Positions 3,758-34,415 of a stretch of DNA of 36,647 nt are shown piece after piece. The notes under the pieces are model-generated. The model was not told the origin of the DNA. It saw only the letters and a program-made list of their open reading frames with translations, and searched no databases. Both the position numbers and the translations under genes were made by a program. The DNA is taken from IMG/VR virus record IMGVR_UViG_3300022836_000018, positions 1 through 36,647 of that record. The stretch is one strand, 5' to 3'. The DNA comes from a virus. The stretch's first letter is position 1. Each line of letters opens with the position of its first letter.

Positions 3758-5209
3758 TTAAATTGGAAATATTTTCTCGAATTTAAGATGTCCACAATCC
3801 CATATTCTATCGAGTCCGTTCAATTGCATATTCTCCCATTCGGTTAAAGTTTCATCATATATTTTTAATTTATTTTTGATGATATCTTTTCGATAGCCGT
3901 ATCTATGTTTTCGTTCGTTTCCAATAATATACCAATATCCCGGTAAGGTCGATCCAATAGATTGAAATCCCATATTGATATATACGTTACCTTTAGACCA
4001 TCGCTTATCAGCATAAGTTATGATTTTTTTGGGTGATCTTGTTCTTTCAAAGAATTTTAACATTTTCGATGCGGCACCAATGATTGAGAAATTAGAAACC
4101 GAACAAAATCTTACCAATTCCCATTCATTTTCTGTTTGATTGTAACCGAGAGCTATCCGTTTGGGTGAAAAAGTCATAACCGATACTAAACGATTTTTAT
4201 AAAAAAGGCCAATGAATACATTCGATTTATCATTCCCCTGTATATGATATTTTTGTAAAAATTTATTTTTGACATCTTTAGATATTTCCTTAATGATACA
4301 TTTTCTGGCATAAATTTTTCTTGTGAAGTGACCTAAAATATTTTTAAGTCTCGTTTTCACAATTTTTTGTTTATTCACCCATTCATCTTCAAATATATGG
4401 ATTAACCGATAACCTAGATTTTCTGCTAATTTAGATTTTTGATAATGGTAAAATTTGGATTTTTTTCCAGACATTTCCGAGTGCCAATACAAACCATCTA
4501 ATTCAATTGCGATATTCTTATCTGGGATTACAACATCCAATTCCATCGGTTTTATGATTTCTCTATCTTGCTCTATTATATTATGTTCGTATTTTTTTAT
4601 ATACTGGATTAATTCGTTTTCGATTATAGACTGTCCCTTAGTTTCGATTTTTGGTAAACATACGAAGCATCTCGGAATTTTTCCATCATCCAAATCACTA
4701 GTAAATTCGTTATTACATATAGAACATTTAAATGGATATTTGTTCTGCACCCCATCGTAATCGGTTATATCAAAAAGGGGAATTATCGATTTTAATCGAT
4801 CTGAGTTTTTCAATTTCGTATAAAATTTATCTAACAACTTTCTTTTAATAGTCTCTTTAACATGTGGTCGAGATTTTTTCACCCCTTCCGAAATTTTCTT
4901 CCTAATTTCTATATTTTTTGATGGATTATCGGTTCCATATTTATCAATAAAATTTTCTTTCGTTCTTTGTTGGATTTCTAGATTTTGAGCAGCATATCGA
5001 ACACCATATTTTTTAAGATTCGTTTCTTCCTTTTTAATTTTTATTTCACATGATTTGGATGGATTATCTACACCATAACGTGATATATATGCCATTTTCT
5101 TCTTATCTTGAACTTCTTTGGATCGGTTCGAATGTCCTAAAATATATGTATTTTTGTGATTTTTTAGGGGTTCACCACAACCACATTTACAATATTTATT
5201 TTCGTTCAT
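3758..5209 (-). CDS. Free-standing homing endonuclease, Vsr/EDxHD-like
   Basis: The 483-residue protein begins with a Cys-rich knuckle (CKCGCGEPL) and a ring of repeats reading KYGVDNPSK, KYGVRYAAQ and KYGTDNPSK (about residues 44-100), as in DNA-binding modules of phage homing endonucleases. A CxxC pair of treble-clef type follows (CSICNNEF, later CFVC). The nuclease core MELDVVIPDKNIAIELDGLY with WHSE and then GYRLIHIFEDEW fits the Vsr-fold EDxHD family. The C-terminal part (YHIQGND, then IGLFYKNRLVSVMTF) resembles the acetyltransferase-like tail often seen on such enzymes. It lies between gp23 and gp16, downstream of the gp23 terminator, an intergenic site typical of selfish endonucleases that spread by cutting a neighbouring gene. 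Confidence 0.82.
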   Translation of the reverse strand: MNENKYCKCGCGEPLKNHKNTYILGHSNRSKEVQDKKKMAYISRYGVDNPSKSCEIKIKKEETNLKKYGVRYAAQNLEIQQRTKENFIDKYGTDNPSKNIEIRKKISEGVKKSRPHVKETIKRKLLDKFYTKLKNSDRLKSIIPLFDITDYDGVQNKYPFKCSICNNEFTSDLDDGKIPRCFVCLPKIETKGQSIIENELIQYIKKYEHNIIEQDREIIKPMELDVVIPDKNIAIELDGLYWHSEMSGKKSKFYHYQKSKLAENLGYRLIHIFEDEWVNKQKIVKTRLKNILGHFTRKIYARKCIIKEISKDVKNKFLQKYHIQGNDKSNVFIGLFYKNRLVSVMTFSPKRIALGYNQTENEWELVRFCSVSNFSIIGAASKMLKFFERTRSPKKIITYADKRWSKGNVYINMGFQSIGSTLPGYWYIIGNERKHRYGYRKDIIKNKLKIYDETLTEWENMQLNGLDRIWDCGHLKFEKIFPI

Positions 5210-5321: not shown

Positions 5322-6752
5322 TTAGAGGTATACTCTTCCAGATGATGCCGAGAATTCTTGGCCGAGGCCGCGAACAAGGATCACATGATAGAACAAGGAT
5401 GCTCCGAAGATATAATCAACAACACCATATCGAGTCATAAGACCAACCCTTGGGCTGAAATCATTAGGACCGATGGTTCGTTGAATCATTACGGGAATAT
5501 AAGGACAATAAACTATGCCAGTGTCGTAATATTCTGCACCTTTGTAACCTAGTAAAGCGTATTCAAGAGCAGCGTCTCTCGCTCCGGATAGGAACTGGGC
5601 GTCAGTTCTGGTGTCGCGGTAGACTGTGAAGCGGCCTCCGAGATTACCAACCTTGGCAATGCCAGTAGGTTGTGTATTCACGTTACCATTCACACTCATC
5701 CACTGAAACTCAGGCAACATTTCCAAAATCGCACAAACTCTAGGAGTTGCGATGATGAAGTTAGCAGCACCACGCCTGTTACGGATCGCGATACGGTTTG
5801 CTTCAACAATGATCTTGGAATAGAAGTCTCGGTTTCTCTCTCCGAGCCAACGTGCGTCAGCCGAAGCAGCATACCAGAAGCTATAACCATTTCCTGCACC
5901 TGCTGTGAGGGCTACTTGGATCATTCTGATAACCATTTCACGGTCGATTTCGGCCTGTAACTCATACGACATTGCGTTGGTGAGTTCAGAATCGATATCG
6001 AGACCGTTCATGTTCTTCAAGTCCTGCTCTAGTTCAACAGACCAACGCGCTGCAAGGCGGCGGGTGCCAGCTTCGACAGCGGTTTTGCTGAATTCGACGG
6101 TTACTTGAGGAATATTACCAGTTAGCTCAAACTGACTTAGGATCGCAGCAACACCTTGATCGGATTCGAGGATATTGAAACCCGCGTTTCCTGTTAGGGC
6201 TTGCGAGCTTGTGCCAGTAAAGCGTGTATCTAAGTGTTGATAGCCTAGTTCTTTTCCATCGGCACCGGATCTTTCGATTCCTGCGCCGTAGGTGGTTTTG
6301 CCATTGGCATAACCATCGATGCCATTGGCACCTAAACTATCAGCCTCATAGCGGTAACGGAGAGCGAATGCGAGTCCGACTGGACCACTCATTGGCTGAA
6401 CACCGACAATCTCATTGGTAATCAACTCTGGGAACGTACGTCGAACCATTGGTATTAATACCTTTGGTAGACGAGCATCGCCCGTAGCATAATTATCGCC
6501 AGAAAATGCGCCAGCAGTTCCTTGGTGAGATCCGAAGACTCCACCAGTTGCGGCTGAATTACCAGCCTCCTGCAAACACCATTTTTCTTGGTTTTCCATG
6601 AGAATAGCTGTATTTAGGCGGGTGTGTTCGTTGGAAATAGGACTAACTTTGTCAGAACTATGATCGAGAACAGGTTCCCACTTTTCTACAAGCTGTTGTG
6701 CGCGTGAACGGTCAATAAAGCCGGTTGCGGGTTTTACATTTTTAATACTCAT
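5322..6752 (-). CDS. gp23: Major capsid protein gp23
   Basis: The 476-residue protein has the T4 gp23 layout. A 62-residue propeptide ends in LQE followed by AGNSAATGG, matching the (L/I)xE cleavage rule of the gp21 prohead protease (cut expected after E62). The N-terminal arm FSGDNYATGDARLPKV follows, then MVRRTFPELITNEIVGVQPM and the HK97-fold body. T4 gp23 has 521 residues, so this is slightly short. The gene ends upstream of a strong terminator and follows gp22 by 42 bases. The start is preceded by AAAGTAATAAT with no clear late octamer, so it may be read through from gp22. Part of its arm is duplicated in the protein at 31789-32340. Confidence 0.96.
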   Translation of the reverse strand: MSIKNVKPATGFIDRSRAQQLVEKWEPVLDHSSDKVSPISNEHTRLNTAILMENQEKWCLQEAGNSAATGGVFGSHQGTAGAFSGDNYATGDARLPKVLIPMVRRTFPELITNEIVGVQPMSGPVGLAFALRYRYEADSLGANGIDGYANGKTTYGAGIERSGADGKELGYQHLDTRFTGTSSQALTGNAGFNILESDQGVAAILSQFELTGNIPQVTVEFSKTAVEAGTRRLAARWSVELEQDLKNMNGLDIDSELTNAMSYELQAEIDREMVIRMIQVALTAGAGNGYSFWYAASADARWLGERNRDFYSKIIVEANRIAIRNRRGAANFIIATPRVCAILEMLPEFQWMSVNGNVNTQPTGIAKVGNLGGRFTVYRDTRTDAQFLSGARDAALEYALLGYKGAEYYDTGIVYCPYIPVMIQRTIGPNDFSPRVGLMTRYGVVDYIFGASLFYHVILVRGLGQEFSASSGRVYL

Positions 6753-6789: not shown

Positions 6790-6810
6790 ACGTATTATTT
6801 AGTAATACGT
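6790..6810. other. Short inverted repeat at the gp22-gp23 junction
   Basis: ACGTATTA and TAATACGT form an 8-base-pair stem with a 5-base loop. It covers the last codons and stop of gp22, just before the leader of gp23. It could act as an mRNA processing or stability element that raises capsid over scaffold expression; this is inference. The orientation is symmetric. Confidence 0.45.
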
Positions 6811-7688
6811 TCCAATTCACTCAGATATCCGCTAACAGGACTGTTTGCCCCATTAGTTTTAACGACTCCTTCAGAAACAAGCTGTGTGGGTTTAGCATCA
6901 CGACTGATAGCAGTCTTGGTTGCAGCAACCGCTGACTTCTGTGTTTCTTCCTGTTCGCCGTTTTCGAACATCTCAACAACATAATTGAAATTTTCTCTGA
7001 TGTATGTTACATCCTTATCTTCGAGAAGTTTAATGATAAATTCTTTTTTAGCAGATGCCATTCCTTTAGTTTTACCTTCAAGGATCATTGCAGTCTTAAC
7101 TTTGCCTAACTCACGATGTAGTTTAGCATTTTGGTCGTTGGCCTCGCTCAACAAACCAGCCATCTTGTCAAGTTTGTTCTTTCCCAACTTAACAACCGAC
7201 TTAACATTCTCTTGAACCATTTCCGGATCAAAAGAAACCAATTTACGGATATCATTCAATTGCTTGCGAGCGTGTGTGTTTTTAACCGCTTCTTGGATTT
7301 GTGTGTAAGGAATTTTCTTTTCCAAATACATGGAAATAAATTTATCGAGATCGCAAATGATCTTATTCGAGAAAGTAGATGCTTTCTCGTCGATTGACTT
7401 CTTATAGAAGTTAATGATATTACCAAGTTTCTTGGTGTGTGACTCTGTAATAGCTTTAACAACAATTTTTAACTTATCACAATGATCGGTGTCCGATTTT
7501 TCTAAAATATGGTTCAATTTAGCAGCATGATCTTCATCTTGCTCGAACAAAGCCTTTTCAACGGCCAAAGAAACTCTAGCATCGGACTTTTCTTTAACTG
7601 CTGAGTCAAATGCTTCTGCGATTGCAGAAGCAGTTTCTTCGGTAATTAGATTTGGATCTAAATTTTTGAGAAGTTTTTTGAGTTCCAT
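6795..7688 (-). CDS. gp22: Prohead core scaffolding protein gp22
   Basis: The 297-residue protein is highly charged and mostly helical, with no globular motif, as expected of gp22, the main scaffold of the T4 prohead (269 residues). The N-terminal MELKKLLKNLDPNLITEE and the helical blocks SDARVSLAVEKALFEQDEDH and LRELG-type repeats fit. Several (L/I)xE sites are available for destruction by gp21, for example ITE near residue 17. Position between gp21 and gp23 matches T4 synteny. A TATAAGTA late-type box lies 15 bases before the ATG. No Shine-Dalgarno is present. Confidence 0.88.
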   Translation of the reverse strand: MELKKLLKNLDPNLITEETASAIAEAFDSAVKEKSDARVSLAVEKALFEQDEDHAAKLNHILEKSDTDHCDKLKIVVKAITESHTKKLGNIINFYKKSIDEKASTFSNKIICDLDKFISMYLEKKIPYTQIQEAVKNTHARKQLNDIRKLVSFDPEMVQENVKSVVKLGKNKLDKMAGLLSEANDQNAKLHRELGKVKTAMILEGKTKGMASAKKEFIIKLLEDKDVTYIRENFNYVVEMFENGEQEETQKSAVAATKTAISRDAKPTQLVSEGVVKTNGANSPVSGYLSELERITK

Positions 7689-8139: not shown

Positions 8140-9900
8140 TTAGAGTTTCTTGATTGCATTAATGAAATTAATGACTTGTTCTTTAAGGAATTCTTGTTGA
8201 GCCTTCTTGGGAAGTTTGGAAATACTCTTTTCAAAATCAGCATAAACTGGTTCGAATAAACCGGATTCACCAACAAGCCATTTCTTAGATTCTAAGATAC
8301 CATTAACAAAGGCAGTTGGAACCGAGGGGTCAGCCACAACATCAACGGCAACCAGATGGATTTCCGAAACCATTGATTTACCACCCTTTTCGTCGAGCCG
8401 TCCAAGTGCTCTAGAAGATACACCCAACTTAACACCATCCATAATAAGTGACTTAACAATATTACCCATAGGAGTAGAAAGAATCTTAGATTTTCCTAAA
8501 AATATATTACCATCTTGTTTAAGTTCGGTAACAACATGGCAAACCCGTTCTAGGTTAACCGTTGCTGAATTTCCAGTCCAAAAGGACTTTCCGTTATCCA
8601 TGCAATAAAAATTTCCATGTTTTACTGTGACACAATAAACTCTCCCTGAAAAATCATCCACTGGTGTTATTTTTAAAAATCGAGAATCTAAATGGATATT
8701 ATTAGTGCTTGATATATTTAATTGATACAATATAGATTTATTTTCTGCCTTTATCAAACGACCCGCAAAGTAATAATCCGATTCTGCTTCAATCTCTCTA
8801 ATATTTCCACAACCGCCCGATTTGAATAAAATTTCATTCAAATCTAATATAAGCTGTTCTGATGTTGAAAACACATTTCGAAAATCGTATCCATCACAAT
8901 TTCCAAATCGACCATCTCCTAAATTAAACCAATATACCAATTCGTCCAATAATGTAGAATCTAAATTTTTAAATTCTTTTGCGATTTTTTTATTATAACA
9001 TGTTGTGCCAAAATTATTTTTAAGATATTCGGCTAATCGATAATCTAACAATTTAAAAATTGATGTGCCGCTATCGGTGATAGTTTCAGACCATTTCATT
9101 TCATCTGGAAATTCCGAAAGCATCTCTCTTATTTTTATAACAATGTCTGATTTCTTTTGAGTTATTCCCACAATCGTTTTTTCCGATTTTACAGTCCACC
9201 CCTCAGATAACCAAATTCCTAAAAATTTAACAAATGTTTCATATTTAATATAAGAATCGGTTTCTGGATTTATATTATATCTACCAACGTCCTTAATATT
9301 TTTTAACCCTTCTAATTTAAATAATTCGGGGGTTTCAGAAACCCAATTTCCTTGCTTTGGTATAGTCGAGTGGTTATATTTATTTCGATTATTATATAAT
9401 TCCTCGGCTGTGACGAAAGATGGTTTATTATATCGATCATAAACTAAAAATCTATGATTTGGAGTTACCTTTGTATCAATATTTCTACCTTTAATATGGT
9501 ATAATTTACCAGTATATGCGTCATCTATCTTTTTATCGATCTGATGTAATTCAATTTCGCGTGTATCTGGATTTAGAGAATAAACCATCTCTTCATTATC
9601 AATATCTTTCAAAAATTTCCAACCATCTCCCGTCAGAATTTTAGCTGTTTCAAGATGACAGTTCGGATGTTCAAGCTCACCAGTAGCTCGATTATTTTTA
9701 ATCATTTCCGTATTATATCTATCAACTTCTTTTACCATCTCTTCCAATGGATAAATTCTATTATTTCTATTAGCCAAATCAGCCATTAAAAATGGTCCTT
9801 GAATATGCATTGTCGAAGGCGTATTTCGATTTTTTTCTTCGATGAGATATTTTACATCGTAATTAGGTTGTTCGACTATAAGTTGAAAAGCATTTTCCAT
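8140..9900 (-). CDS. gp21: Prohead maturation protease gp21, interrupted by an intein
   Basis: The 586-residue precursor has an N-extein (1-80), an intein (81-444) and a C-extein (445-586). The spliced protein would have 222 residues, close to T4 gp21 (212). The exteins show the family S77 protease: RNNRIYP, the histidine motif GELEHPN (H78), NLERVCHVVTELKQDG, and GVSSRALG with the nucleophile serine candidates, then VDVVADPSVPTAFV. gp21 assembles inside the prohead and cuts gp22, gp23 and packaged proteins after (L/I)xE. The intein sits two residues after the conserved histidine, so unspliced protein should be inactive. A GATAAATA late box precedes the ATG by 16 bases. The spliced junction is N80-S445. 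Confidence 0.9.
   Translation of the reverse strand: MENAFQLIVEQPNYDVKYLIEEKNRNTPSTMHIQGPFLMADLANRNNRIYPLEEMVKEVDRYNTEMIKNNRATGELEHPNCHLETAKILTGDGWKFLKDIDNEEMVYSLNPDTREIELHQIDKKIDDAYTGKLYHIKGRNIDTKVTPNHRFLVYDRYNKPSFVTAEELYNNRNKYNHSTIPKQGNWVSETPELFKLEGLKNIKDVGRYNINPETDSYIKYETFVKFLGIWLSEGWTVKSEKTIVGITQKKSDIVIKIREMLSEFPDEMKWSETITDSGTSIFKLLDYRLAEYLKNNFGTTCYNKKIAKEFKNLDSTLLDELVYWFNLGDGRFGNCDGYDFRNVFSTSEQLILDLNEILFKSGGCGNIREIEAESDYYFAGRLIKAENKSILYQLNISSTNNIHLDSRFLKITPVDDFSGRVYCVTVKHGNFYCMDNGKSFWTGNSATVNLERVCHVVTELKQDGNIFLGKSKILSTPMGNIVKSLIMDGVKLGVSSRALGRLDEKGGKSMVSEIHLVAVDVVADPSVPTAFVNGILESKKWLVGESGLFEPVYADFEKSISKLPKKAQQEFLKEQVINFINAIKKL
8569..9660 (-). mobile_element. Intein with LAGLIDADG (DOD) homing domain inside gp21
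   Basis: A 364-residue in-frame insertion. It begins with Cys81 (CHLETAKILTGDGWKFLKDI, block A), has the block B TxxH motif TPNH at 146-149, and carries two DOD-type helices, FLGIWLSEG at 226-234 and LVYWFNLGDG at 321-330. It ends with block F VYCVTVKHGNFYC and Asn444 before Ser445. The penultimate residue is Gly443 instead of the usual His, a variation known among some inteins. Both the splicing and homing parts look intact. Its codon use and AT content resemble the rest of the phage. Confidence 0.92.
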
Positions 9901-11929: not shown

Positions 11930-13804
11930 TTATAGATCTTCTTCAGGATCTTCTTCATCATTTTCTAATGGTTCGGTCCCTACCGGAAAATTTCCACCTT
12001 CTACTGGTACGTCACCGGGAGCACCAAATTCGGGAATTGCTGATCCCATCTCGGAACCCGCGCCCGTTCCATCAGGAGGAACACCCATTCCACCACCTTC
12101 TGGGCCTCCACCACCTTCTAATCCTTCTTGGGCATCAGCCATTGCCTCTAAATGATCTCTCCAATTTGGCCCCATTTGACCAATTTGCATCAATTCCCAT
12201 TGTAGGGCAGCATCTTTACGCAACCATGCCATATTTTCAGAAATCTTATCATCGGTAAGACCAAGATAATATCTCTGTGCAAAGGTTTTCGAGATTGATT
12301 CGTTTTGAGCCATGTTCGAGAAATTGTTATATTTCAAATCAAACAATTGTTGCTGTCTTATTGCAAAATAACTAGATGGTGGTGTAAATTCTAAATCAAA
12401 ATTAGATTCATGTAGTCCGTATTCTTTCCACCAATCTCTAAGTTTTAAATGAGTGACAAATGACGCTTTAAATCCTTGAGCAAATGCTCGTTGAATTCTA
12501 ATGATAAATTTGGCAAATCTAAGCTCTTCTCGCAAGATTTCTGCGCCATCGCTAAAACTTTGCTCTGGGTTTAGTCTGCTAGTAGGAACTTTTAAAGATT
12601 GATAAAGTTTTTTAACGAAATATTGCAAGTCGGCTAGTTCGCCTAATGATCCACCACCCGGAAGTGACTCAACGTTAGACCCATCTTCACCTTTTCTTCG
12701 AGCAAACCAATAATCATCCAACATGGACATAGGTTCGTATACATTAGACGCACCGGGAGACTGGCTCGACCCGTCATAAGATTTTCTATTCCTATACTGA
12801 TGCATCATCTGTTTAATATATGCTTCTGCCTTTGCTGGTGGCAATGTTCCAACGTCGATAGTGAATTTCAATCGTTCTGGTGCTCTAACCATTCGATAAA
12901 TGATAATAGCATCTTCGATGAGTGAAACTTGCTTGTAGGCTCTACGACAATTCTCTAAAAATGGAATTCTGATTGTAAAATCTTCATTCCATATACCAGA
13001 ATGGATATATGTAATTTGTTTTCCTTCTAACGTTAAGATCTGTTGTTGTAAAGAATTAACCGGATTGGTATTCTTCATGTTCGGTGGAACATTTGGATTG
13101 GATTGAATATCAACAGGCTTTTGAAATAAGAAATTTTGAATTACCGTGTTTTGAACATTGTCATATACTGGATTGATAAGATCTCCGGGAACTGTTATTG
13201 CACCAACAATGCCAAGATTGGTTTTTTCTTCATGAATAACATTTTCAAAGAAGACTTCTCCCTCAGTAAGCCAATTTCTACAGTAAGCCCAACCCTTTCT
13301 TTGGATTTCAAAAATATTAATGAATCGATAGAATTCTTTTTCGATCTCTGAGCGTTCTTCGGACTCTATCTTGTTAAAATTGTTAAACTTGATTGAAATA
13401 GCTCGTCCATTATCATCAATATTAACAAAGTCATCGCAAATTTCATCCAAACAATCAGAAACTTCTGCAAATGCGGCCATTCTTCGATATTCCGATAACC
13501 TACGTGGTTTATCGGTGTCCAAAGCGGCGTAAATATACTGATGATATCCTTTATCGGTATTAAATGCACTAGGAGAGAATTGATCCTGCCAAGACTGATC
13601 CATATAAGGACCAGTGATGACAGATTGCCTCATTATTTTGGCTTCACGATTCTTAGTTAATCTACTAAATAACTCATATTTTGGATTATTTTCATCAACG
13701 TCCTGAACAATCTCAGCATAAGGCAATTTTTGTAGTAAACTTGAGACGAACCCTCTACCTTGATCTGTTTTTCCGCCAGCCTGTGAAAATGCGTTTGATG
13801 CCAT
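11930..13804 (-). CDS. gp20: Portal vertex protein gp20
   Basis: The 624-residue portal has the T4 gp20 signature (T4: 524). Seen are ENNPKYELFSRLTKNREAKI, YIYAALDTDKPRRLSEYRRM, AAFAEVSDCLDEICDD, RRAYKQVSLIEDAIIIYRMV, RAPERLKFTIDVGTLPPAKA, YWFARRKGEDGSNVESLPGG and LKVPTSRLN. The last 60 residues are an unusual Gly/Pro/Glu-rich tail (EGLEGGGGPEGGGMGV and on), ending in acidic EDPEEDL. The portal nucleates prohead assembly and is the DNA channel. A GATAAATA late-type box lies nine bases before the ATG. No Shine-Dalgarno is present. Confidence 0.96.
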   Translation of the reverse strand: MASNAFSQAGGKTDQGRGFVSSLLQKLPYAEIVQDVDENNPKYELFSRLTKNREAKIMRQSVITGPYMDQSWQDQFSPSAFNTDKGYHQYIYAALDTDKPRRLSEYRRMAAFAEVSDCLDEICDDFVNIDDNGRAISIKFNNFNKIESEERSEIEKEFYRFINIFEIQRKGWAYCRNWLTEGEVFFENVIHEEKTNLGIVGAITVPGDLINPVYDNVQNTVIQNFLFQKPVDIQSNPNVPPNMKNTNPVNSLQQQILTLEGKQITYIHSGIWNEDFTIRIPFLENCRRAYKQVSLIEDAIIIYRMVRAPERLKFTIDVGTLPPAKAEAYIKQMMHQYRNRKSYDGSSQSPGASNVYEPMSMLDDYWFARRKGEDGSNVESLPGGGSLGELADLQYFVKKLYQSLKVPTSRLNPEQSFSDGAEILREELRFAKFIIRIQRAFAQGFKASFVTHLKLRDWWKEYGLHESNFDLEFTPPSSYFAIRQQQLFDLKYNNFSNMAQNESISKTFAQRYYLGLTDDKISENMAWLRKDAALQWELMQIGQMGPNWRDHLEAMADAQEGLEGGGGPEGGGMGVPPDGTGAGSEMGSAIPEFGAPGDVPVEGGNFPVGTEPLENDEEDPEEDL

Positions 13805-23271: not shown

Positions 23272-24057
23272 TTAGTAAGATTCGTTATCCGATAAAAACT
23301 GTTCATCACCGAACGGATCGTTTTTATCGATTCCTAATTCTGCGGCAATGTCGTCGGAAATACCAGATTCAGGGTCTTCATCTTCACCTGTTTCATCTCG
23401 GAATGCTTCCATATCATCACCAGAACTTTCTAGATCACTCTCTTCGGGGTCCAAAGAATCTAAAGATGGGTCTTGTAATACGGTTAATATATTATCTTCG
23501 TTGGATATTTGATTATCTGATACCATTTTTTGGATAATATCTTTAACTTCGTTGGCATCATGGCCGTAACGTTCAATATACTGAACAACTTCTTCAACCG
23601 ACGCAGAACCACTTTCGGATTGATGGATAAAATCGTAAATGTGTTGTTGAACACTTTCAACACGTTTATCAGCAGGGATTTCCCCAACATATTCGGAAAA
23701 ATACTGACGATCTGGATCTTTAACAAAATTAAAAAATCTTTCGGCGAAACGAATTTTCTCTATAGAGCTTAGGGCTTGTCCCGAATATGCATTGACTATA
23801 GCTTCTTCCCATTCTGGTAAAGTCTTAGATTCTCCAGACATTTCTTCGTTAGAAAAATACTCATTGTCGTTATACTGCTTCAATCCTCTCAGAGCGAATG
23901 TATAAATCTTTTTAAAGGGGTTACTATCAGGTAAAGTGTTGACATCATTTTCAAGTTTATCAAAATCAATAACCATCTTGTTGTACGTTTTTGGTTTTCT
24001 ACCCTCGGTAATATCTAAAATATTTTCAACGAAAATATCAAATTTAGTCTTGTTCAT
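23272..24057 (-). CDS. Putative head-internal protein with winged-helix-like centre
   Basis: The 261-residue protein begins MNKTKFDIFVENILDITE and then GRK: an amphipathic leader ending in ITE followed by Gly, the exact form of a capsid-targeting sequence with a gp21 site. The centre (SVQQHIYDFIHQSESGSASV, EEVVQYIERYGHDANEVKDI, IQKMVSDNQISNEDN) has the helix spacing of a winged-helix domain. The C-terminal 70 residues are strongly acidic. A CATAAGTA late-type box lies eight bases before the ATG. Packaging in the head and delivery with DNA are inferred; no homologue is recognised. Confidence 0.78.
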   Translation of the reverse strand: MNKTKFDIFVENILDITEGRKPKTYNKMVIDFDKLENDVNTLPDSNPFKKIYTFALRGLKQYNDNEYFSNEEMSGESKTLPEWEEAIVNAYSGQALSSIEKIRFAERFFNFVKDPDRQYFSEYVGEIPADKRVESVQQHIYDFIHQSESGSASVEEVVQYIERYGHDANEVKDIIQKMVSDNQISNEDNILTVLQDPSLDSLDPEESDLESSGDDMEAFRDETGEDEDPESGISDDIAAELGIDKNDPFGDEQFLSDNESY

Positions 24058-25081: not shown

Positions 25082-25504
25082 TTAAATGATTTGTTCTGGT
25101 AGTTTTTCATTAGTAATACTTTTTAAAACATCTAACATAGTTTTATAATTTTCAGAATTAGCTCTAGCAGTTGGTGATGTATAACTTCTTAAAAATTCTT
25201 GTTTAGTATTTTCAGGTAGATTCATAAAATCAATAAAGGTATTAAGAAGATTGATAGTAACTGTCTCAGATTCTTTAGGATCTGGTAATTGACTACCGTT
25301 ATCCTCTGGGAGATCAACAGGTGCAAAATCGTCTCCAAAATCTTGTTCTTCGTCTTCCATCGGATTTGGAACATTTTTAGGCTTTACTACATTTTCGGGT
25401 GAATTTAATTCATCCTCTTCTTCGGGAAAATCTTTAGGTGGAAATTCTTCTTCGAATAATCGAATATATGATTGTTTAAAAAGGTCGTTAAATTTAGATG
25501 ACAT
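25082..25504 (-). CDS. Putative head-internal acidic protein, 140 residues
   Basis: The leader MSSKFNDLFKQSYIRLFE followed by EEF fits the amphipathic targeting pattern, with LFE as a possible gp21 site. The rest is Pro/Asp/Glu-rich and disordered (residues 20-75), then a short helical domain (TVTINLLNTFIDFMNLPENT, then KQEFLRSYTSPTARAN). An ACTAAGTA octamer lies five bases before the ATG. It follows the 26559 gene by eight bases, so both may be made together. Not recognised otherwise. Confidence 0.72.
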   Translation of the reverse strand: MSSKFNDLFKQSYIRLFEEEFPPKDFPEEEDELNSPENVVKPKNVPNPMEDEEQDFGDDFAPVDLPEDNGSQLPDPKESETVTINLLNTFIDFMNLPENTKQEFLRSYTSPTARANSENYKTMLDVLKSITNEKLPEQII

Positions 25505-25509
25505 GAAAT

Positions 25510-25517
25510 TACTTAGT
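25510..25517 (-). promoter_or_regulatory. Late-promoter-like octamer ACTAAGTA for the 25504 gene
   Basis: A weaker relative (three mismatches from TATAAATA), five bases before the ATG. It covers the final codons and stop of the upstream gene, so it may be fortuitous. Confidence 0.35.
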
Positions 25518-26559
25518 CGAGTTCTTTCATATAATGCAAAATGTAAGAATCTCCTATAACTCCTTTATTTCGATAATATGAAGGCATACTATCTATATCC
25601 ATTTGTCTCACTTGTTGAGTTGCTGCTGTTGCCTTAACTTCTAAATCGGATCGTTCTAGTCCTTGAACATTGCCACTTTCCATATCTGTTAGAGTGATGT
25701 CATATCGATTACCGAAATAAGTTGATATGGTATATTGATGTTGATCGAGAATTTCGGGGTTACTTTCATATTCATATATTTTACCCTCTTCGTCAAGTGC
25801 ATTACTAATTCCTCGGGCAATAGTCTTTAAAGTATCTCGGGTTAATTCTTTTGTTTCTATCGAATCTCCAGCAACTCTAGACCATCCCCAATTCTTAATA
25901 GCATATTCCCGAGAATCGTTAGTGCATCCATATCCGTGCATAACTAAATCGTTTGCATTTTCAACACCTTGTTTTTTAAGATAATCAATCATGGCATCGG
26001 CTGGATCATGTTTCATAAGTTTTAGTGCTTCGTATTGATCTTCATCATCTTCGTAGTCACCGTTATCTACTATATATTGTAGAATAGCATCTTCATTTTG
26101 TTCTAGGTTAGGATCATCTTCATATCCCATATCAAAGTAGGATAGAACTTCTGATGCACATTTTTGGACGACATATGCTTCATGGTTCATGTCACTAACA
26201 TTAGCATCGGCATACATGGTAGTTCCATTATCATCGAACCAATATTCACCAGATAATCCAACGGTTTCAAAATCTTCTTCTGGTTCTTCGTAATCAGGAG
26301 AAGATTTTTCTTCTTCTTCCATTCTTTGGTTTTCTAAATTGTCTTCATAATTTTTTAAAATATCTTCCGAGGTTTTTAGGACTCTAGATAACATGTCAGA
26401 ATCATATGTTTCTGGACTTCGCATAATGCTACCATCGGGCATTTCTCGATCAATCTTATATTGATTATCACCAACTTTAATCGTTTTTACAATTCTTGTT
26501 GGCTTGTTATAGGATTCTAAAATATTTTGATAAAGGATTTCGAACTTACCGTAGGTCAT
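25513..26559 (-). CDS. Putative head-internal protein, 348 residues
   Basis: The leader MTYGKFEILYQNILE followed by SYNKPTR fits the targeting pattern, with ILE then Ser as a gp21 site. After a strand-rich VKTIKVGDNQYKIDREMPDG comes an acidic linker and a mixed domain with GYGCTNDSREYAIKNWGWSR. No known family is recognised. It is divergent from the lysis cassette with only 18 bases between the two start codons, so their promoters must overlap or lie inside the genes. No clear late-type box is seen. Confidence 0.75.
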   Translation of the reverse strand: MTYGKFEILYQNILESYNKPTRIVKTIKVGDNQYKIDREMPDGSIMRSPETYDSDMLSRVLKTSEDILKNYEDNLENQRMEEEEKSSPDYEEPEEDFETVGLSGEYWFDDNGTTMYADANVSDMNHEAYVVQKCASEVLSYFDMGYEDDPNLEQNEDAILQYIVDNGDYEDDEDQYEALKLMKHDPADAMIDYLKKQGVENANDLVMHGYGCTNDSREYAIKNWGWSRVAGDSIETKELTRDTLKTIARGISNALDEEGKIYEYESNPEILDQHQYTISTYFGNRYDITLTDMESGNVQGLERSDLEVKATAATQQVRQMDIDSMPSYYRNKGVIGDSYILHYMKELD

Positions 26560-27627: not shown

Positions 27628-27906
27628 ATGAACTTTAAAAAACTTATAAACGAAGGTTTGGATAGTATGATGACTGATATCAAAAATCTTCAACCATCTG
27701 GTCAAAATCCACAACAAAATCCACAACAAAATCCGGAAATCGGTAATAATCCGGCACCGACATCACAACAGTCTGATATCAAAGTAGCTCGTTATAAAAA
27801 TTCAAGAAATTTTGGTGTATGGAAAGGTGAAGAACTTATTGTTGTGGCAGTTTATCAAAAAGGTGCAAATCGAGTAGCCGAGATTCTACAGAAGATGAAT
27901 TACTAA
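27628..27906 (+). CDS. Small protein with targeting-like leader and NPQQ repeats
   Basis: The 92-residue product starts MNFKKLINE followed by GLDS, very close in form to the T4 internal-protein leader, with INE then Gly as a gp21 site. A linker with NPQQ repeats (residues about 26-40) follows. The C-terminal domain VARYKNSRNFGVWKGEELIV, then VAVYQKGANRVAEIL belongs to a type of small domain seen in many phage proteins and of unknown function. It lies in the lysis cassette, which is odd for a packaged protein. Confidence 0.68.
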   Translation: MNFKKLINEGLDSMMTDIKNLQPSGQNPQQNPQQNPEIGNNPAPTSQQSDIKVARYKNSRNFGVWKGEELIVVAVYQKGANRVAEILQKMNY

Positions 27907-28984: not shown

Positions 28985-29007
28985 TTCGACAAAATAAAAT
29001 AGTCGAA
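28985..29007. terminator. Short hairpin after the endolysin
   Basis: TTCGAC and GTCGAA form a 6-base-pair stem around an A-rich 11-base loop, 28 bases after the endolysin stop. It is weak, with no clear T-run, but placed where convergent transcripts meet. Confidence 0.3.
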
Positions 29008-29023
29008 AGATCGGTCCAGAGAA

Positions 29024-29054
29024 CGGCGGACAACGCCTCACCTAACCTCCGCCG
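29024..29054. other. GC-rich hairpin at the edge of the foreign cassette
   Basis: CGGCGGA and TCCGCCG pair perfectly over seven bases across a 17-base loop. The hairpin includes the last codons of the broken gene ending at 29042 and marks the left border of the GC-rich segment. It could be a terminator stem for the minus-strand cassette or a recombination border. Confidence 0.35.
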
Positions 29055-29312
29055 CCTCTGACCTTTGCGTTCTCCTTAAATCCGAGATGGCGAATCATTG
29101 GTTCCCATTTCGTCCCTGTCCCGACTTGGTAAGTAATCCCATCGTCCCCAAGTCCGAGTAGAATCCCTTGCCATGTGGAGTCATTCGGAGCGATCAGGAT
29201 TTGGATAATCTTAGGAGAACAAGACGATGAACTCGAATCATTCCCGCTGGCACTTTGGGTTTCGGGGCTGGGCTTCGGGGCTGGGCTTCGATTTAGATTT
29301 GATTTTATTCAT
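29042..29312 (-). pseudogene. Small gene broken by a 13-base tandem duplication
   Basis: The ATG at 29312 overlaps the stop of the zinc protein gene. The frame reads MNKIKSKSKPSPE and then shifts at a tandem 13-base repeat (29261-29286). With one copy removed, the frame runs on through QSASGNDSSSSCSPKIIQIL and IAPNDSTWQGILLGLGDDGI to KVRGGGG and a TAG at 29042-29044: 85 residues, in exact phase (271 minus 13 is 258 bases). The C-terminal part looks like a small beta domain. Not recognised. The duplication may be a slipped-strand mutation or a reversible switch. Confidence 0.6.
29261..29286. repeat. Perfect 13-base tandem duplication
   Basis: TTCGGGGCTGGGC twice in a row, followed by TTCG, which begins a third copy. 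The unit is not a multiple of three and breaks the surrounding reading frame. Confidence 0.95.
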
Positions 29313-29526
29313 GATTTTTGGGTGTTGATTGGGATGGATTGGTGATAGTGGTGTTCTGCATCCTCGTTTGCGCTTCAATGTTCGTAAGAAAGACTCTATT
29401 TTTTTCACCGACTGGTTTTCCGTGCATTACGCAGCGAGAGTTTTGACACCAGTCTCCGTCATAAATAGCCCAATAACATATCGAGCATCGTGCACTTCGG
29501 TATAATTTGCATTTTTCAGTTTTCAT
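29305..29526 (-). CDS. Small Cys-rich (zinc-ribbon-like) protein, 73 residues
   Basis: The start MKTEKCKLYRSARCSICYWA at 29526 overlaps the methyltransferase stop as ATGA and is preferred over the upstream in-frame ATG at 29643, which lies inside that gene. Cysteines at C6, C14, C17, C27, C32 and a following MHGKPV suggest a zinc knuckle. It may assist the methyltransferase or bind nucleic acid. GC-rich like its neighbours. Confidence 0.6.
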   Translation of the reverse strand: MKTEKCKLYRSARCSICYWAIYDGDWCQNSRCVMHGKPVGEKNRVFLTNIEAQTRMQNTTITNPSQSTPKNHE

Positions 29527-30269
29527 GATTTCGATTTGGTTGGGGCAGAATTGGTCATCTTGTCGATAGATTGCAGAGGCACGGTGATTCCGATCCCTCG
29601 GCGATTCTTTGCCTTCTCCAGAACAAGAAAATAGCTGTGCCACACCCTAGCGTGTTTCTGCGTCCCTTTCTGCGGACTCGGCATACGGTGCTTTGCCGTC
29701 AAAATGAACATATCAGCCAGCCGGAACCCTTCGATTTCCGCCATCATTATCACCTTGTAATGAGTGCAATGCATTTTGTGATTATGTATGATGTCCTGAC
29801 ATTTGAAGATCATCTTGCCCCCCGGTTTAAGCACTCGATACGCCTCACTAATTGAGTCTCGATAGTGATCTTCCAGATCATCGTATCGGTAGTATCCGCC
29901 AAATCGGGCAGTCATTGCCACTCGACCGCCTTGATGATTTCGACCGTTTTTAACATACGTCAGGAATGGCGGATCGAAAACCACGTTGGAAAGCGAAGCC
30001 GCATCAACAGGTAGCATCCGAGAATCGGCCTGTTGCGCCTCTGGCTTCTGCGGTGTCAGGTCGAAGCACAGTCGTGGCCGGGGAAGTGTTTTCCAAAACG
30101 CCCCGTTGCCGTACGTCATATCGCACTCAAATCCCTCAGGGCAGTGCAGTTTTTGGATGTTCGACAGGATTTGATCCTGTGAATCTGAAACAGATCGGAC
30201 GATTTCCGGCTTCTGTAGTCCCTCTTGTTGTTGATTGTGTAGGTCGTATGCTTCTATCGATGCGTTCAT
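29523..30269 (-). CDS. DNA methyltransferase (N6-A/N4-C type)
   Basis: The 248-residue protein has an AdoMet site like DMTYGNGAFW at residues 50-59, the catalytic motif FDPPF at 98-102, and EAYRVLKPGGKMIFKCQDII (about 142-161), with a C-terminal KHARVWHSYFLVLEK strand. Motif I before motif IV and DPPF point to an amino-methyltransferase for adenine or cytosine. It could protect phage DNA from restriction. Its DNA is far more GC-rich than the phage (36 of 60 bases at 30001-30060 against 17 of 60 at 28081-28140), a sign of recent transfer. No cognate nuclease lies beside it inside the GC-rich segment. Confidence 0.82.
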   Translation of the reverse strand: MNASIEAYDLHNQQQEGLQKPEIVRSVSDSQDQILSNIQKLHCPEGFECDMTYGNGAFWKTLPRPRLCFDLTPQKPEAQQADSRMLPVDAASLSNVVFDPPFLTYVKNGRNHQGGRVAMTARFGGYYRYDDLEDHYRDSISEAYRVLKPGGKMIFKCQDIIHNHKMHCTHYKVIMMAEIEGFRLADMFILTAKHRMPSPQKGTQKHARVWHSYFLVLEKAKNRRGIGITVPLQSIDKMTNSAPTKSKS

Positions 30270-30755: not shown

Positions 30756-31278
30756 TGCTATTAATTATAGCAGATGTTAAAATATTTTCAACCAATTCCA
30801 CCGGATAGCTTAAATTGGCATGTAAAATCGTTTTTCGAATGTCCGATAGTTGTTCGGTTAATCTTTTTCTCAATTGATCGACTTCTTCTTGGGCGTTTGG
30901 TTCAAGATTCTCCATAATAGGGGTTTCTTGTAGCTTGAAGGCATCTAAAAACGGTTCTGATAGTTTTTGAAGGGTTCCTGCCATTCTCTTATATAGGCGA
31001 TCAAGTGGTGACCTATATTTTTTATCGGGTTTTTGTTCTAACATCTCGAAAAGATGTGACATGACCGCAGATTTTTTCAAATGTTCTTGTGTTATGATCA
31101 TTGCATTGCTTCCTCTGATGTGCATTTTGCCGTATGGGTTGTAACAACATCCCATTCCGATGTTTTTGGACCCACAATACATGCATTTGGAAATTTCGTC
31201 GATATGGGCATGAGTATTCGTAGGGCTAAAGATGCACGGCTTTCCATAATTGCTAGATCCACAGTATACACATTTCAT
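30742..31278 (-). CDS. Protein with two tandem zinc-binding motifs
   Basis: The 178-residue protein has two copies of a CxxCGSxNxGxxC...P...HxHI-like motif: CVYCGSSNYGKPC with HAHI (residues 3-25) and CMYCGSKNIGMGC with MHI (32-55). Each could hold one zinc through three Cys and a His. The rest is helical, with ENLEPNAQEEVDQLRKRLTE and a coiled-coil feel. The ATG overlaps the nuclease stop (ATGA), so both are co-translated; a DNA- or RNA-binding partner of the nuclease is a reasonable guess. Function unknown. Confidence 0.7.
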   Translation of the reverse strand: MKCVYCGSSNYGKPCIFSPTNTHAHIDEISKCMYCGSKNIGMGCCYNPYGKMHIRGSNAMIITQEHLKKSAVMSHLFEMLEQKPDKKYRSPLDRLYKRMAGTLQKLSEPFLDAFKLQETPIMENLEPNAQEEVDQLRKRLTEQLSDIRKTILHANLSYPVELVENILTSAIINSNGKS

Positions 31279-31799
31279 AATTCTATTAAATCTGTTTTTA
31301 TATCATCATATGTTTTCATTTTCAACAAATTATCTTTGTTTGCAATTAAAAACGGTTCGGCGAGTTCTATATAATACTTACCTTGATAAATCATAGTGTT
31401 ATTAGATATTTTGAGATTATATCCAATCGGGTGACAAACGTAGGTGTTCTTGCGGGTGATTTTGAAGAATAATAACCAATTTGGTTTGTTAGTATGGTCC
31501 GATTGTTTGATCCATTCATCGATGATGGCACCTTTGCCTGTGAATAATGAATGAAATGCGAATTCTTTGTAGTTTTTACATTCAATTGAGATATGAGATA
31601 GTTCTTCTGGAACGATTATATCACCATCATGTAATAATTTCTGAGCATCCGTCATTTTATCATATCTAAAGGCATTTTTTCCTCCGGTGAAAGATCCGGA
31701 GTTGGGGACACGTTGAAAATTGAGTTCAAATACTCTCGATAATATATCTACTAGCTCTCGTTCGAACGCATTTCCTTTAGCTTTTGATTTATTTGGCAT
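31275..31799 (-). CDS. PD-(D/E)XK nuclease, Holliday-junction-resolvase-like
   Basis: The 174-residue enzyme has KGNAFERELVDILSRVFELN (conserved Glu near residue 14), RVPNSGSFTGGKNA, DGDIIVPEELSHISIECKNY (D59/E...K, the PD-(D/E)XK core) and a C-terminal strand region. This resembles small resolvases of the Hjc/RecU type and other phage recombination nucleases. T4 uses the unrelated gp49 for junction resolution, so this could be a replacement, but gp49 might lie outside the window. It overlaps the upstream capsid-arm gene by 11 bases. Confidence 0.75.
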   Translation of the reverse strand: MPNKSKAKGNAFERELVDILSRVFELNFQRVPNSGSFTGGKNAFRYDKMTDAQKLLHDGDIIVPEELSHISIECKNYKEFAFHSLFTGKGAIIDEWIKQSDHTNKPNWLLFFKITRKNTYVCHPIGYNLKISNNTMIYQGKYYIELAEPFLIANKDNLLKMKTYDDIKTDLIEL

Positions 31800-32340
31800 T
31801 TTTTTTCTTCTTCGTCCGTTTCTTCTTATTCTTAATTACTCCGGTAGCAAACACTGTCAATTCAGGCATGGTTCTACGCATAACTCCTTTGCCTAGTGCT
31901 TTAGGTAATCGAGAGTCCCCGGTGGCATAGTTATCACCCGAAAAATGAGTCTCAGTAGAGGAAACATCACCAAAAACGCTTGCTGCGCCTCCTGCGGTGT
32001 TAGATTCGACTATCTTATTGACTAATTTGTTAAATTTGCTTTCTTTCATGGTTGAATACTCCTGTATCTTGCTATTTACTTCTTCGGGAGTGACTTTAAA
32101 TTGGTTTTGGATGATCCAATCACGAACCTTGTCCTTAATTTGGCCAATGATCGGACCCTTTATATCAGGTAATTGATCCATTATCATTTGTCCATTGATC
32201 AATCCAGACATTTTCTTTTCAAATTCTTCTTTGGCACCAAACATCTTATGAACATCTTCGGCTCTTTGCATTTTTGTCTCATGTTCCTCGGTTAAATGTT
32301 GCACGGTTTTTTTGAAAAATCTGTTGAAATCATACTTCAT
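31789..32340 (-). CDS. Head-internal protein carrying a copy of the capsid gp23 arm
   Basis: The 183-residue protein starts MKYDFNRFFKKTVQHLTE, a targeting-like leader with LTE as a possible gp21 site. A helical middle ends in SKFNKLVNKIVE, then SNTAGGAASVFG and FSGDNYATGDSRLPKALG, VMRRTMPELTVF. The last part mirrors gp23 from its cleavage site onward (AGNSAATGGVFG, FSGDNYATGDARLPKVL, MVRRTFPELI). The C-terminus is lysine-rich (KNKKKRTKKKKNAK). A gp21 cut after E112 would free a 71-residue basic peptide. A GATAAGTA box lies five bases before the ATG and a perfect TATAAATA at 32389-32396. It heads the operon with the nuclease. Confidence 0.82.
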   Translation of the reverse strand: MKYDFNRFFKKTVQHLTEEHETKMQRAEDVHKMFGAKEEFEKKMSGLINGQMIMDQLPDIKGPIIGQIKDKVRDWIIQNQFKVTPEEVNSKIQEYSTMKESKFNKLVNKIVESNTAGGAASVFGDVSSTETHFSGDNYATGDSRLPKALGKGVMRRTMPELTVFATGVIKNKKKRTKKKKNAK

Positions 32341-32345
32341 AAAGT

Positions 32346-32353
32346 TACTTATC
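32346..32353 (-). promoter_or_regulatory. Late-promoter-like octamer GATAAGTA, proximal
   Basis: Two mismatches from TATAAATA, five bases before the ATG at 32340; with T4 geometry the mRNA would be leaderless. Confidence 0.5.
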
Positions 32354-32601: not shown

Positions 32602-32997
32602 ATGGAATTGTTCAATACCTATTTAAAGGAAATTAATATCGATACGCAGTTGGATCAATTAAATATCATAGATAAGCAATTGAAACAACCAGCGGTTAGA
32701 CATAAGTGGGTTTCTCGTTTAATGTTGGCTAAAAAATCTTTAAATACCTTAAAGAAAAAGAAAAGGGATATTAGAAAAAGTGTTATGGAGGCTTTATATG
32801 CTCAGATACCAAAAGGAATTCCTAAAGCATCGTTAGATCTAAAAATAGAATCATCTGAAAAAATTCAGGCTATAAATGAAGAAATCGAAAATGCTGAATT
32901 GTTGGTAGAATATTTAGACCGAGTTGAAAAGATTTTTTCTAGTATGACATTTGATTTCAGCAATCTGGCTAAATTGATAAAAATGGAAGAATCTTAA
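32602..32997 (+). CDS. uvsY: Recombination mediator UvsY-like
   Basis: The 131-residue protein is helical and basic in the centre (HKWVSRLMLAKKSLNTLKKK) with a C-terminal helix pair (EIENAELLVEYLDRVEKIFS). Length (T4 UvsY 137), charge pattern and position directly before uvsW identify it. UvsY loads the UvsX recombinase on SSB-coated DNA. AGGA lies about eight bases before the ATG, an occasional Shine-Dalgarno-like match. It starts the plus-strand operon uvsY-uvsW-55-orf-47; the upstream gap holds the G-rich blocks but no clear host-type promoter that I could fix. Confidence 0.7.
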   Translation: MELFNTYLKEINIDTQLDQLNIIDKQLKQPAVRHKWVSRLMLAKKSLNTLKKKKRDIRKSVMEALYAQIPKGIPKASLDLKIESSEKIQAINEEIENAELLVEYLDRVEKIFSSMTFDFSNLAKLIKMEES

Positions 32998-32999
32998 AC

Positions 33000-34415
33000 G
33001 TGATTACAATCGAATTTAGTGGTAAGAAAAAAAATCTGTTACAGATGGTTGGTGATGTTGATACGATTTCAATCGTTCGATCTGCTTTTTCCGTTGCAAA
33101 TCCTGCATTCATATCGAAAAAACCTTACATATCAGCCAGACTTTATGTAATCACCCCAACAGGTAAATTCGACTCTGGATTGCTTGATAATGTAACATCG
33201 GTTTTAGATGCTCATAGTTTTTCATATAAAGTTGATATGCTCGTTAAAGATTATTTCGCTTTAAAGTTCGGTGATGATAAATTAATCGAACTATCGATAC
33301 CTTACCGAGATTTTCAATCAGAAGCCATTAGAACGGCTATTGCGCATCGTAGTGGGGTCATTCTGGTTGGGACTGGTGGAGGAAAAACTCTCTTAGCGGG
33401 TGGATTGATCACAAATATTCGTAAACATATTGGGAAACCAGATGCAAAGGTCATGGTGACGGTTCCAACTCTTCAATTGGTTGAACAAACTTCGAAAGAT
33501 TTTGAGGAATATGGTCTTACCGATATCACAAAATGGTCCGGGAAGAATAAATTAGATCGTGATGCCAATATTATTATTGCCGGAACGCAATATCTCGTAG
33601 GAAAGAACACAGATCTTTCGATCATGGCTGATATTGATATTTTTATCATAGATGAAACCCATGTTTTGCGGAGACAAAATCAATTAAATAAAATATTTAA
33701 ATTTCTTGATACACCTTACAAATTTGGACTCACCGGAACGATGCCATCGGAAAAAATAGATCAATGGAATATCATAGGTAAGATAGGTTCCGTTTTATTT
33801 GAGAAAAAAACCGACGAACTTAAAAATGATGATTATGTATCAAATTTTCATATTTACATTTTAAATATAAACCATGGTCGCAAAGTTTTCACATCCGATC
33901 CAGATGCTCCTGCATCTAAATATCTTAAAGAATTGGATTTTTTGATCAATGATACTCGACGTAATGACGTTATCACCAACCTTTCTTTAAAATTGTCCAC
34001 AAATACTGTGATCATGGTTGACCGCATTATAAATGGTGACAATATTTTAAAAAAATTGCAAGGAAAAACTGATCGACCCGTTTATTTCATCCAAGGGTCT
34101 ACCGAATTGGAAGATCGAGAAACTATTCGTAAATTGATGGAAGAACGTTCTGATGTGATCGTAATTGCATCAACTAAAATATTTTCTACCGGAATTAATA
34201 TTCCAAACTTGCACAACATTATTTTCGCATCAGCCGGAAAAGCAAAAATAAAAATTATTCAGAGTATTGGGAGAGCACTTAGATTGCACCCAACAAAGGA
34301 ATTGGCTCGAATTTTTGATATTTCTGATAATACCCATTATGCGAATATCCATCGAGAAGAACGTAAGAAACTTTATATGAAGGAATTGTATCCTTACACA
34401 GAAAAAAATTTATAA
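33000..34415 (+). CDS. uvsW: DNA helicase/annealing ATPase UvsW
   Basis: The 471-residue SF2 helicase (T4 UvsW 503) starts with GTG two bases after the uvsY stop. Motifs: Q-like PYRDFQSEAI at 101-110, Walker A GTGGGKT at 124-130, DETH at 218-221, motif III GLTGTMP, and C-terminal IIVIASTKIFSTGIN-like motif V and QSIGRALRLHP motif VI. The small N-terminal domain before residue 95 fits UvsW. It drives branch migration, fork regression and the switch from origin to recombination-dependent replication by unwinding R-loops. Confidence 0.9.
   Translation: MITIEFSGKKKNLLQMVGDVDTISIVRSAFSVANPAFISKKPYISARLYVITPTGKFDSGLLDNVTSVLDAHSFSYKVDMLVKDYFALKFGDDKLIELSIPYRDFQSEAIRTAIAHRSGVILVGTGGGKTLLAGGLITNIRKHIGKPDAKVMVTVPTLQLVEQTSKDFEEYGLTDITKWSGKNKLDRDANIIIAGTQYLVGKNTDLSIMADIDIFIIDETHVLRRQNQLNKIFKFLDTPYKFGLTGTMPSEKIDQWNIIGKIGSVLFEKKTDELKNDDYVSNFHIYILNINHGRKVFTSDPDAPASKYLKELDFLINDTRRNDVITNLSLKLSTNTVIMVDRIINGDNILKKLQGKTDRPVYFIQGSTELEDRETIRKLMEERSDVIVIASTKIFSTGINIPNLHNIIFASAGKAKIKIIQSIGRALRLHPTKELARIFDISDNTHYANIHREERKKLYMKELYPYTEKNL

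Follow-up and report, generated by a model that had tools for sequence, protein, structure and literature searches.

We identified a conserved family of small proteins in uncultured T4-like phages that join a copy of the N-terminal arm of the major capsid protein gp23 to a lysine-rich stretch. The member analyzed here is encoded in a 36,647-base IMG/VR virus record carrying T4-type head genes (the window), about 25 kb away from gp23. The parts of its gene and the neighboring and head genes of the window are as follows.

31789..32340, minus strand: whole ORF of the arm-mimic protein, 183 amino acids, open from ATG to stop
32287..32340, minus strand: residues 1-18, capsid-targeting-like N terminus with the first [LI]xE site, LTE/E (slash, predicted cut; from the sequence)
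32050..32286, minus strand: residues 19-97, remnant of the C-terminal part of a CCA-adding enzyme (by its match to the L092 fusion)
32005..32049, minus strand: residues 98-112, second targeting-like segment, ending IVE/SN and equivalent to the start of the stand-alone relatives
31858..32004, minus strand: residues 113-161, gp23-like arm (BLASTP and profile searches)
31792..31857, minus strand: residues 162-183, Lys-rich tail (from the sequence)
32346..32352, minus strand: ATAAGTA, late-promoter-like, 5 nt before the ATG (motif enrichment)
31275..31799, minus strand: PDDEXK endonuclease gene, a separate protein overlapping the end of the arm gene (Pfam PDDEXK_15, 2.1e-22)
32602..32997, plus strand: uvsY-like gene, divergent neighbor (Pfam UvsY, 4e-4, just below cut-off)
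33000..34415, plus strand: uvsW-like helicase, synteny anchor (locus comparison)
5322..6752, minus strand: gp23 major capsid protein (Pfam Gp23, E 1.2e-90)
6423..6569, minus strand: gp23 residues 62-110, the arm that the small protein copies (alignment)
6795..7688, minus strand: gp22-like scaffold (Pfam T4_CASP, 2.3e-7)
8140..9900, minus strand: gp21-like prohead protease with an intein-like insert (Peptidase_S77, 4.9e-21; Intein_splicing, 2.6e-7, below the curated cut-off)
11930-13804: portal gene (Portal_T4)

A gp23-like arm in a small protein

The sequence-only reading of the window had proposed that a small protein mimics the gp23 arm, and the amino acid strings that it quoted are present in the arm protein and in gp23. 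The likeness is real: a BLASTP comparison restricted to these two sequences gave 26 identical residues out of 50 with E 6e-12, and the Smith-Waterman score of 119 lies far above those of 1000 shuffles (mean 32, maximum 52). Three further IMG/VR contigs (L002-L004), 99.94-99.97% identical to the window DNA across 6.7-14.9 kb, encode an identical protein. LTE at residues 16-18 and IVE at residues 110-112 both fit the [LI]xE motif; gp21 motifs of the form L/I-X-E and capsid-targeting sequences are described for T4 in the available text of PMC9026906. A cut after IVE (E112), as predicted, would leave 71 residues, the length that had been stated.

The relationship was also recovered at the level of profiles. 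A profile of 41 family members, none of them a gp23, retrieved gp23 in 30 of 30 other records with E values from 2.2e-14 to 1.9e-7, the gp23s being judged by their place and frame length. When compared with a gp23 profile, it gave a probability of 98.1 and E 6.8e-14, columns 12-61 of the small protein lying on gp23 columns 52-104. The arm of the family, running from the cleavage site to I-x-RR-x-FPEL, shares its ancestry with the start of gp23 in the same clade. Unlike T4 gp23 and gp24, the family has no HK97-fold body, a Lys-rich stretch replacing or interrupting the sequence. PF07068, the model of the Gp23 body, matched neither the arm protein of the window nor any of the 41 members.

The end of the arm in the window gp23, RLPKVLIPMVRRTFPEL, aligns with residues about 90-106 of T4 gp23. 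According to the available text of PMC7136217, the T4 N-fist consists of residues 66-91, is stabilized by inter-capsomer contacts and is disordered in the five portal-facing subunits; that of PMC9958956 describes T4 gp23 N-terminal regions that are disordered within the prohead and become ordered outer-surface arms and fists upon expansion. As this region of T4 gp23 reorders on expansion, what has been copied is the portion of the capsid protein that changes its arrangement during maturation.

The arm likeness is to the gp23 of the clade itself, and the family profile does not recognize the gp23 of T4, RM378, S-CAM3 or S-SRM01 (E 0.26 to 4 when these four were searched). In a gp23 tree with long branches, 22 IMG/VR rows and the window formed one clade (99/98); T4, RM378, two cyanophages and two contigs of marine MAGs fell outside it. 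An assignment of the clade to the Far-T4 phages (PMC4360716) is not claimed on this basis. A pattern scan of 84,980 species genomes for gp23 relatives returned two, at 32-34% only. A resemblance of residues 55-110 to the gp23 propeptide, suggested by weak tblastn extensions, was rejected, the same residues aligning far better with the enzyme fusion described below. Residues 4-121 match a 300-aa frame adjoining gp23 in contig G010 (E 4e-5); this frame occupies the place of gp22 and the match may reflect coiled-coil.

The long form carries the end of a CCA-adding enzyme

In contigs L092 and L093 (65% uvsW identity), which encode the same protein, the arm gene is a fusion of 554 aa (L092:2719-4383, minus strand) that combines a CCA-adding enzyme with a head-targeting-like N terminus and the capsid arm. 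Its parts follow the order targeting-like helix, nucleotidyltransferase head (PolyA_pol, 1.6e-37), RNA-binding part, HD domain, arm and Lys tail. The best NCBIfam model was that of a CCA tRNA nucleotidyltransferase (1.5e-73, below the curated cut-off), a further CCA model, TIGR02692, matched fusion residues 29-459 (also below its curated cut-off), and the best solved relatives are CCA-adding enzymes.

Window residues 18-161 align with fusion residues 390-537 at 56% identity over 149 positions (E 4e-49). Fusion residues 390-459, within the TIGR02692 match, form part of the region matched by the window protein; residues 18-97 of the latter thus derive from the C-terminal part of an enzyme of the CCA-adding enzyme/poly(A) polymerase family. 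The catalytic nucleotidyltransferase head and the HD domain present in the enzyme are absent from the window protein. This origin of the extra N-terminal part had been missed by the sequence-only reading. The simplest reading of the alignments is that in the window lineage a CCA-adding enzyme would have been inserted between the targeting helix and the arm, and would later have been lost except for its C-terminal end. A scan with the fusion, of a kind that reaches close relatives only, detected no third contig with the full fusion. The L092 enzyme is possibly a tRNA-repair enzyme that is packaged and injected.

A syntenic family beside uvsY and uvsW

When 38 T4-like IMG/VR records were queried with the window protein, all 38 gave a match: three through the identical gene, with gp23 matching as well in one of them, and the other 35 through gp23. 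Four of these 35 records have, besides gp23, a separate small frame of 78-84 aa beside uvsY and uvsW. A gp23 profile was also run on 22 further records and matched in 4 of them, each time a short frame of the size of the arm gene (81-90 aa), so that the own-pair comparison below stays at 14 genomes. To these were added comparisons of uvsW loci, ten initial ones and the best 80 of a search, making 90 loci from 88 contigs (two contigs contributing twice), of which five are copies of the phage of the window. The locus HMM was built from the first ten members (window, L085-L088 and L094-L098), which are therefore not independent of it.

An HMM scan found a divergent arm gene upstream of uvsY in 83 of the 90 loci at E < 1; E was 0.01 or lower in 72 of them and between 0.014 and 0.89 in the 11 weaker ones. 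Four loci (L113, L126, L129 and L179) end too early to be judged, two (L114 and L116) carry at this place a small Lys-rich gene whose arm has diverged, and in L132 the scan found no arm gene at the uvsY-uvsW locus. Despite this conserved place, none of 41 family members was matched by Pfam at E 0.01, and with the window protein and ten relatives the best PHROGs match had E 0.06 (0 of 11 below 0.05). The search for the arm-plus-Lys-tail design in other phages, suggested by the sequence-only reading, thus revealed a syntenic family in many related uncultured T4-like phages. The design is real and common there; it is the 183-aa form that is exceptional, stand-alone relatives having 66-116 aa and loci with 59-60% uvsW identity (L094-L096) encoding the plain form of 78-81 aa.

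A second weak profile match in G005 is another small basic protein, one that has no arm. A small basic protein with a targeting-like N terminus and no arm is encoded at L238:1146-1421 (minus strand), in the same 211-kb record as an arm gene.

Anatomy of the family

The anatomy was analyzed in 78 distinct members, the fusion and the long window form being excluded and the window entered in its M98 form. Lengths run from 66 to 116 aa with a median of 80, and the common design is a predicted N-terminal helix, a gp21-type [LI]xE site, the gp23-like arm and a Lys-rich stretch. An [LI]xE motif is kept within residues 6-24 in 73 of the 78 members (500 shuffles: mean 15.9, maximum 26), the predicted cut falling at the median after residue 14 and leaving a mature part with a median net charge of +10. 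At least three consecutive K/R residues are present in 75 members. AlphaFold2 modeled the 86-aa form starting at M98, with a 41-row alignment, as a single helix (residues 5-15) in an otherwise unstructured chain (pTM 0.24).

The arm consensus is roughly N-x-AGG-x-x-SVFG ... SGD-x-YAPGD-x-RIPKVLG, and the strict motif [YFW]A..D.R was found in 41 of 78 members. In a subfamily of 16 alignment rows (L119, L122, L125, L131, L138 and others) the second half of the arm is replaced by a different, NIK-x-AMAIAG-like motif; helix, site and Lys stretch are kept. In 48 members, three K/R in succession precede a loose I-x-RR-like element by no more than 25 residues. Since this element resembles IPMIRRTFPEL of gp23, the Lys stretch looks as if it had been inserted into the arm. 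Neither this element, present in many relatives, nor the conserved synteny of the family had been noticed in the sequence-only reading.

Arms match the gp23 of their own genome

In 14 genomes with both genes, every small protein was scored against every gp23 arm. Own pairs exceeded expectation by 298, the s.d. of 50,000 permutations being 58 (p 2e-5, the tree not being modeled). The own gp23 ranked first in four genomes (window, G016, G037 and G063), 2nd to 5th in six, and 7th, 7th, 8th and 13th in the remaining four. Dropping any one of the four best pairs left p <= 2.4e-4 and dropping all four gave p 0.05, so that these four pairs carry most of the signal. Across the 182 off-diagonal cells, which pair different genomes, the score shows almost no correlation with gp23 relatedness (r 0.07).

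A recent conversion event involving the two genes was considered as a source of the matching; the codons of the 14 pairs do not support it. The numbers of codons shared at identical residues, observed versus expected, were 5 and 9.9 for the window, 10 and 13.2 for G016, 19 and 18.9 for G037, and 13 and 14.9 for G063; agreement was about as codon usage predicts, falling short of it in nine pairs and exceeding it by no more than 2 in five. A conversion old enough for its silent sites to have become saturated may have occurred. Matching to the own gp23 together with codon agreement at chance level speaks for a likeness maintained, or restored, in the protein sequence, which would fit two arms with a common binding partner. 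The matching within genomes favors those roles that have the arm bind whatever the gp23 arm binds.

Upstream sequences and start sites

The ATAAGTA element before the arm gene is similar to the T4 late promoter. Of 71 arm genes, 22 have it within 40 nt upstream, compared with 3.2 expected and a maximum of 8 in 300 shuffles; this test is post hoc, the motif having been picked after inspection, and L092 and L121 were excluded from it. Within 40 nt upstream of the window ORFs of at least 130 aa, it was found in 7 of 36 (0.6 expected), and before gp23 genes in none of 79. The exact form of the T4 late promoter, TATAAATA, was not enriched in the 110 nt upstream (3 of 73, with 2.9 expected).

M98 is preceded by AGGAG, 9 nt upstream, and a start there would give a protein of the size of the relatives. 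Against M98 as the true start, none of the 36 long window ORFs (at least 130 aa) has an AGGAG/GGAGG Shine-Dalgarno sequence, the L092 fusion lacks such a site, and M1 has ATAAGTA upstream. The start context of the 183-aa form resembles that of L096. M98 may be an alternative or a second start. Among relatives, 25 of 79 gp23 genes have an AGGAG/GGAGG site, compared with none of these window ORFs; promoter and translation-start habits may differ within the clade.

Relation to known head proteins

The family profile found no match in seven whole records of cultured phages (RM378, phiM19, RAS14, S-SRM01, S-CAM3, HTVC008M and T4), weak evidence for the lack of a relative there, as a counterpart as diverged as their gp23 would escape the profile. 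A tblastn search of GenBank phages gave no credible match (best E 4), BLAST masking Lys-rich stretches. Among T4 proteins, the family HMM had no significant match to gp67, gp68, gp22 or nine others, and it missed T4 gp23 as well. Aligned locally with residues 1-130 of T4 gp23, T4 gp67 and gp22 each outscored 499 of 500 shuffled versions of themselves, which may reflect composition or an old relation.

The T4 internal head proteins with a capsid-targeting sequence (CTS), IPI, IPII, IPIII and Alt, resemble the family in their short N-terminal targeting-like helix, which in the family is a prediction, in the [LI]xE gp21-type site after about 14 residues and in the basic mature part. They differ from it in that no major-capsid arm is described for them in the available text of PMC9026906. 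The T4 CTS and the N terminus of the window protein are alike in design, not in sequence. T4 gp68 is a small core protein with a basic C terminus, as in the arm family, but its genomic place differs and the similarity is not significant (HMM E 12, a value compatible with a very distant relation). T4 Inh, a minor head protein that inhibits gp21, has a place similar to that of the arm gene, on the minus strand beside uvsW; the T4 order is inh(-), segE(+), uvsW(+) and that of the window arm gene(-), uvsY(+), uvsW(+), and a SegE-type GIY-YIG gene adjoins the arm gene in L085, L086, L088 and L225 (Pfam SegE_GIY-YIG, 9e-33 to 4e-32). Inh has 226 aa compared with about 80 in the family, and its HMM score (E 0.77) does not surpass those of unrelated T4 proteins, again compatible with a very distant relation.

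Internal head proteins are a known kind. For a copy of the major-capsid arm on a Lys tail, a search of open-licence papers, covering titles and the starts of abstracts, returned no description.

Other features of the window

Four window genes, at 23272-24057, 25082-25504 and 25513-26559 (minus strand) and 27628-27906 (plus strand), encode proteins with targeting-like N termini by eye and no Pfam match above cut-off; they may be further internal head proteins. Positions 29000-30249 have a G+C content of 0.47-0.49, compared with 0.29-0.39 further out, over a DNA methylase gene (N6_N4_Mtase, 4.6e-8), and this segment was probably acquired. A 483-aa protein near gp23 (3758-5209, minus strand) matches DUF7487 and, weakly, REase_MTES_1575 and a Mom-like model, and is perhaps a mobile endonuclease.

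A model for the arm protein and its alternatives

We propose, giving the proposal an even chance, that the arm protein is a gp21-processed internal head protein whose arm would sit in gp23 N-fist/N-arm sites and whose basic part would lie on DNA. Its N-terminal helix would target it to the prohead core, where gp21 would cut after [LI]xE (in the window after LTE and/or IVE) and leave a basic peptide starting with a copy of the gp23* N-fist/N-arm. At shell maturation the arm would take an N-fist/N-arm-type site between capsomers, and the Lys-rich part would stay inside the shell and bind DNA, making the protein a shell-genome staple. Against this model, T4 N-terminal regions end on the outer surface after expansion (available text of PMC9958956), so that a tail that touches DNA would have to cross the shell, as gp23 does. 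The subfamily with another motif in its arm, the presence of the strict arm motif in 41 of 78 members, the low rank of the own gp23 in four genomes, the p of 0.05 left without the four best pairs and the eleven weak syntenic hits count against it as well.

Docking might take place at vacant arm sites, for example beside the portal. Each of 10 records of 112-230 kb has only one Gp23-family gene and T4 gp24 scores 327 bits for this family, so these phages, whose records may be incomplete, seem to lack gp24, and their vertices would be built by gp23; vacant portal sites would then be the most obvious place. The staple model does not account for the 80-residue enzyme remnant of the window form. 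From sequence data, the roles listed by the sequence-only reading (plug, DNA anchor, assembly modulator, competitor) would all still be in play.

An alternative, which we regard as unlikely, is that the arm merely holds a basic protein or enzyme cargo whose job lies in the new cell, as for T4 Alt or IPI. The CTS-like N terminus with its processing motif would suit an ejected protein, the CCA-adding enzyme between targeting-like helix and arm in L092/L093 looks like packaged cargo, and T4 heads take up CTS fusions and carry them into the cell (available text of PMC9026906). However, the stand-alone members are short, with no fold beyond the helix in the single model made, and a function on the cell side would not need an arm matched to its own gp23. 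The arm protein could instead act in the core, competing with or templating gp23 arms and setting head size or timing as a stand-in for gp67/gp68, which seems to us doubtful. Inspection of the ORF list (ORFs of at least 60 aa) found no gp67/gp68-like gene between portal and protease, the basic C terminus of T4 gp68 has its parallel here, and the place and size of the arm gene are conserved. Yet gp23 arms, disordered in the prohead, order later, which suggests that the copied part acts late (available text of PMC9958956), and the lack of an HMM match to T4 gp67, gp68 and gp22 also speaks against this role, if weakly given that T4 gp23 was missed too.

It is quite improbable that the protein is an inhibitor or decoy substrate of gp21, the counterpart of T4 Inh. 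The shared genomic place, with the nearby SegE-type genes, and the gp21 motif would fit such a role; the copied arm, however, runs about 49 residues past the cut site, and the HMM value for Inh, a weak argument for the reason just given, does not point to kinship. That the window gene is decaying and functionless, as its missing enzyme part and its excess length over stand-alone relatives might suggest, we consider very improbable: four contigs, albeit nearly identical ones, have an uninterrupted ORF, the C-terminal part is conserved relative to L092 (93 of 159 residues, 60% nucleotide identity), and the fetched loci retain the family.

Returning to the staple model, we suggest more tentatively that the family represents a new class of head protein, one that would copy the gp23 N-fist/N-arm onto a DNA-binding tail, co-evolve with its own gp23 and act as an enzyme carrier in the head. 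The arm family would then allow a direct test of which molecules fill the arm sites of vertices and portal, and would offer a natural case of an enzyme fused to an arm of the capsid. If the model is true, these phages would have evolved a shell-to-genome linker by borrowing the capsid part that rearranges at maturation, and the variation of the arm loop between phages would be explained by a partner that must match.
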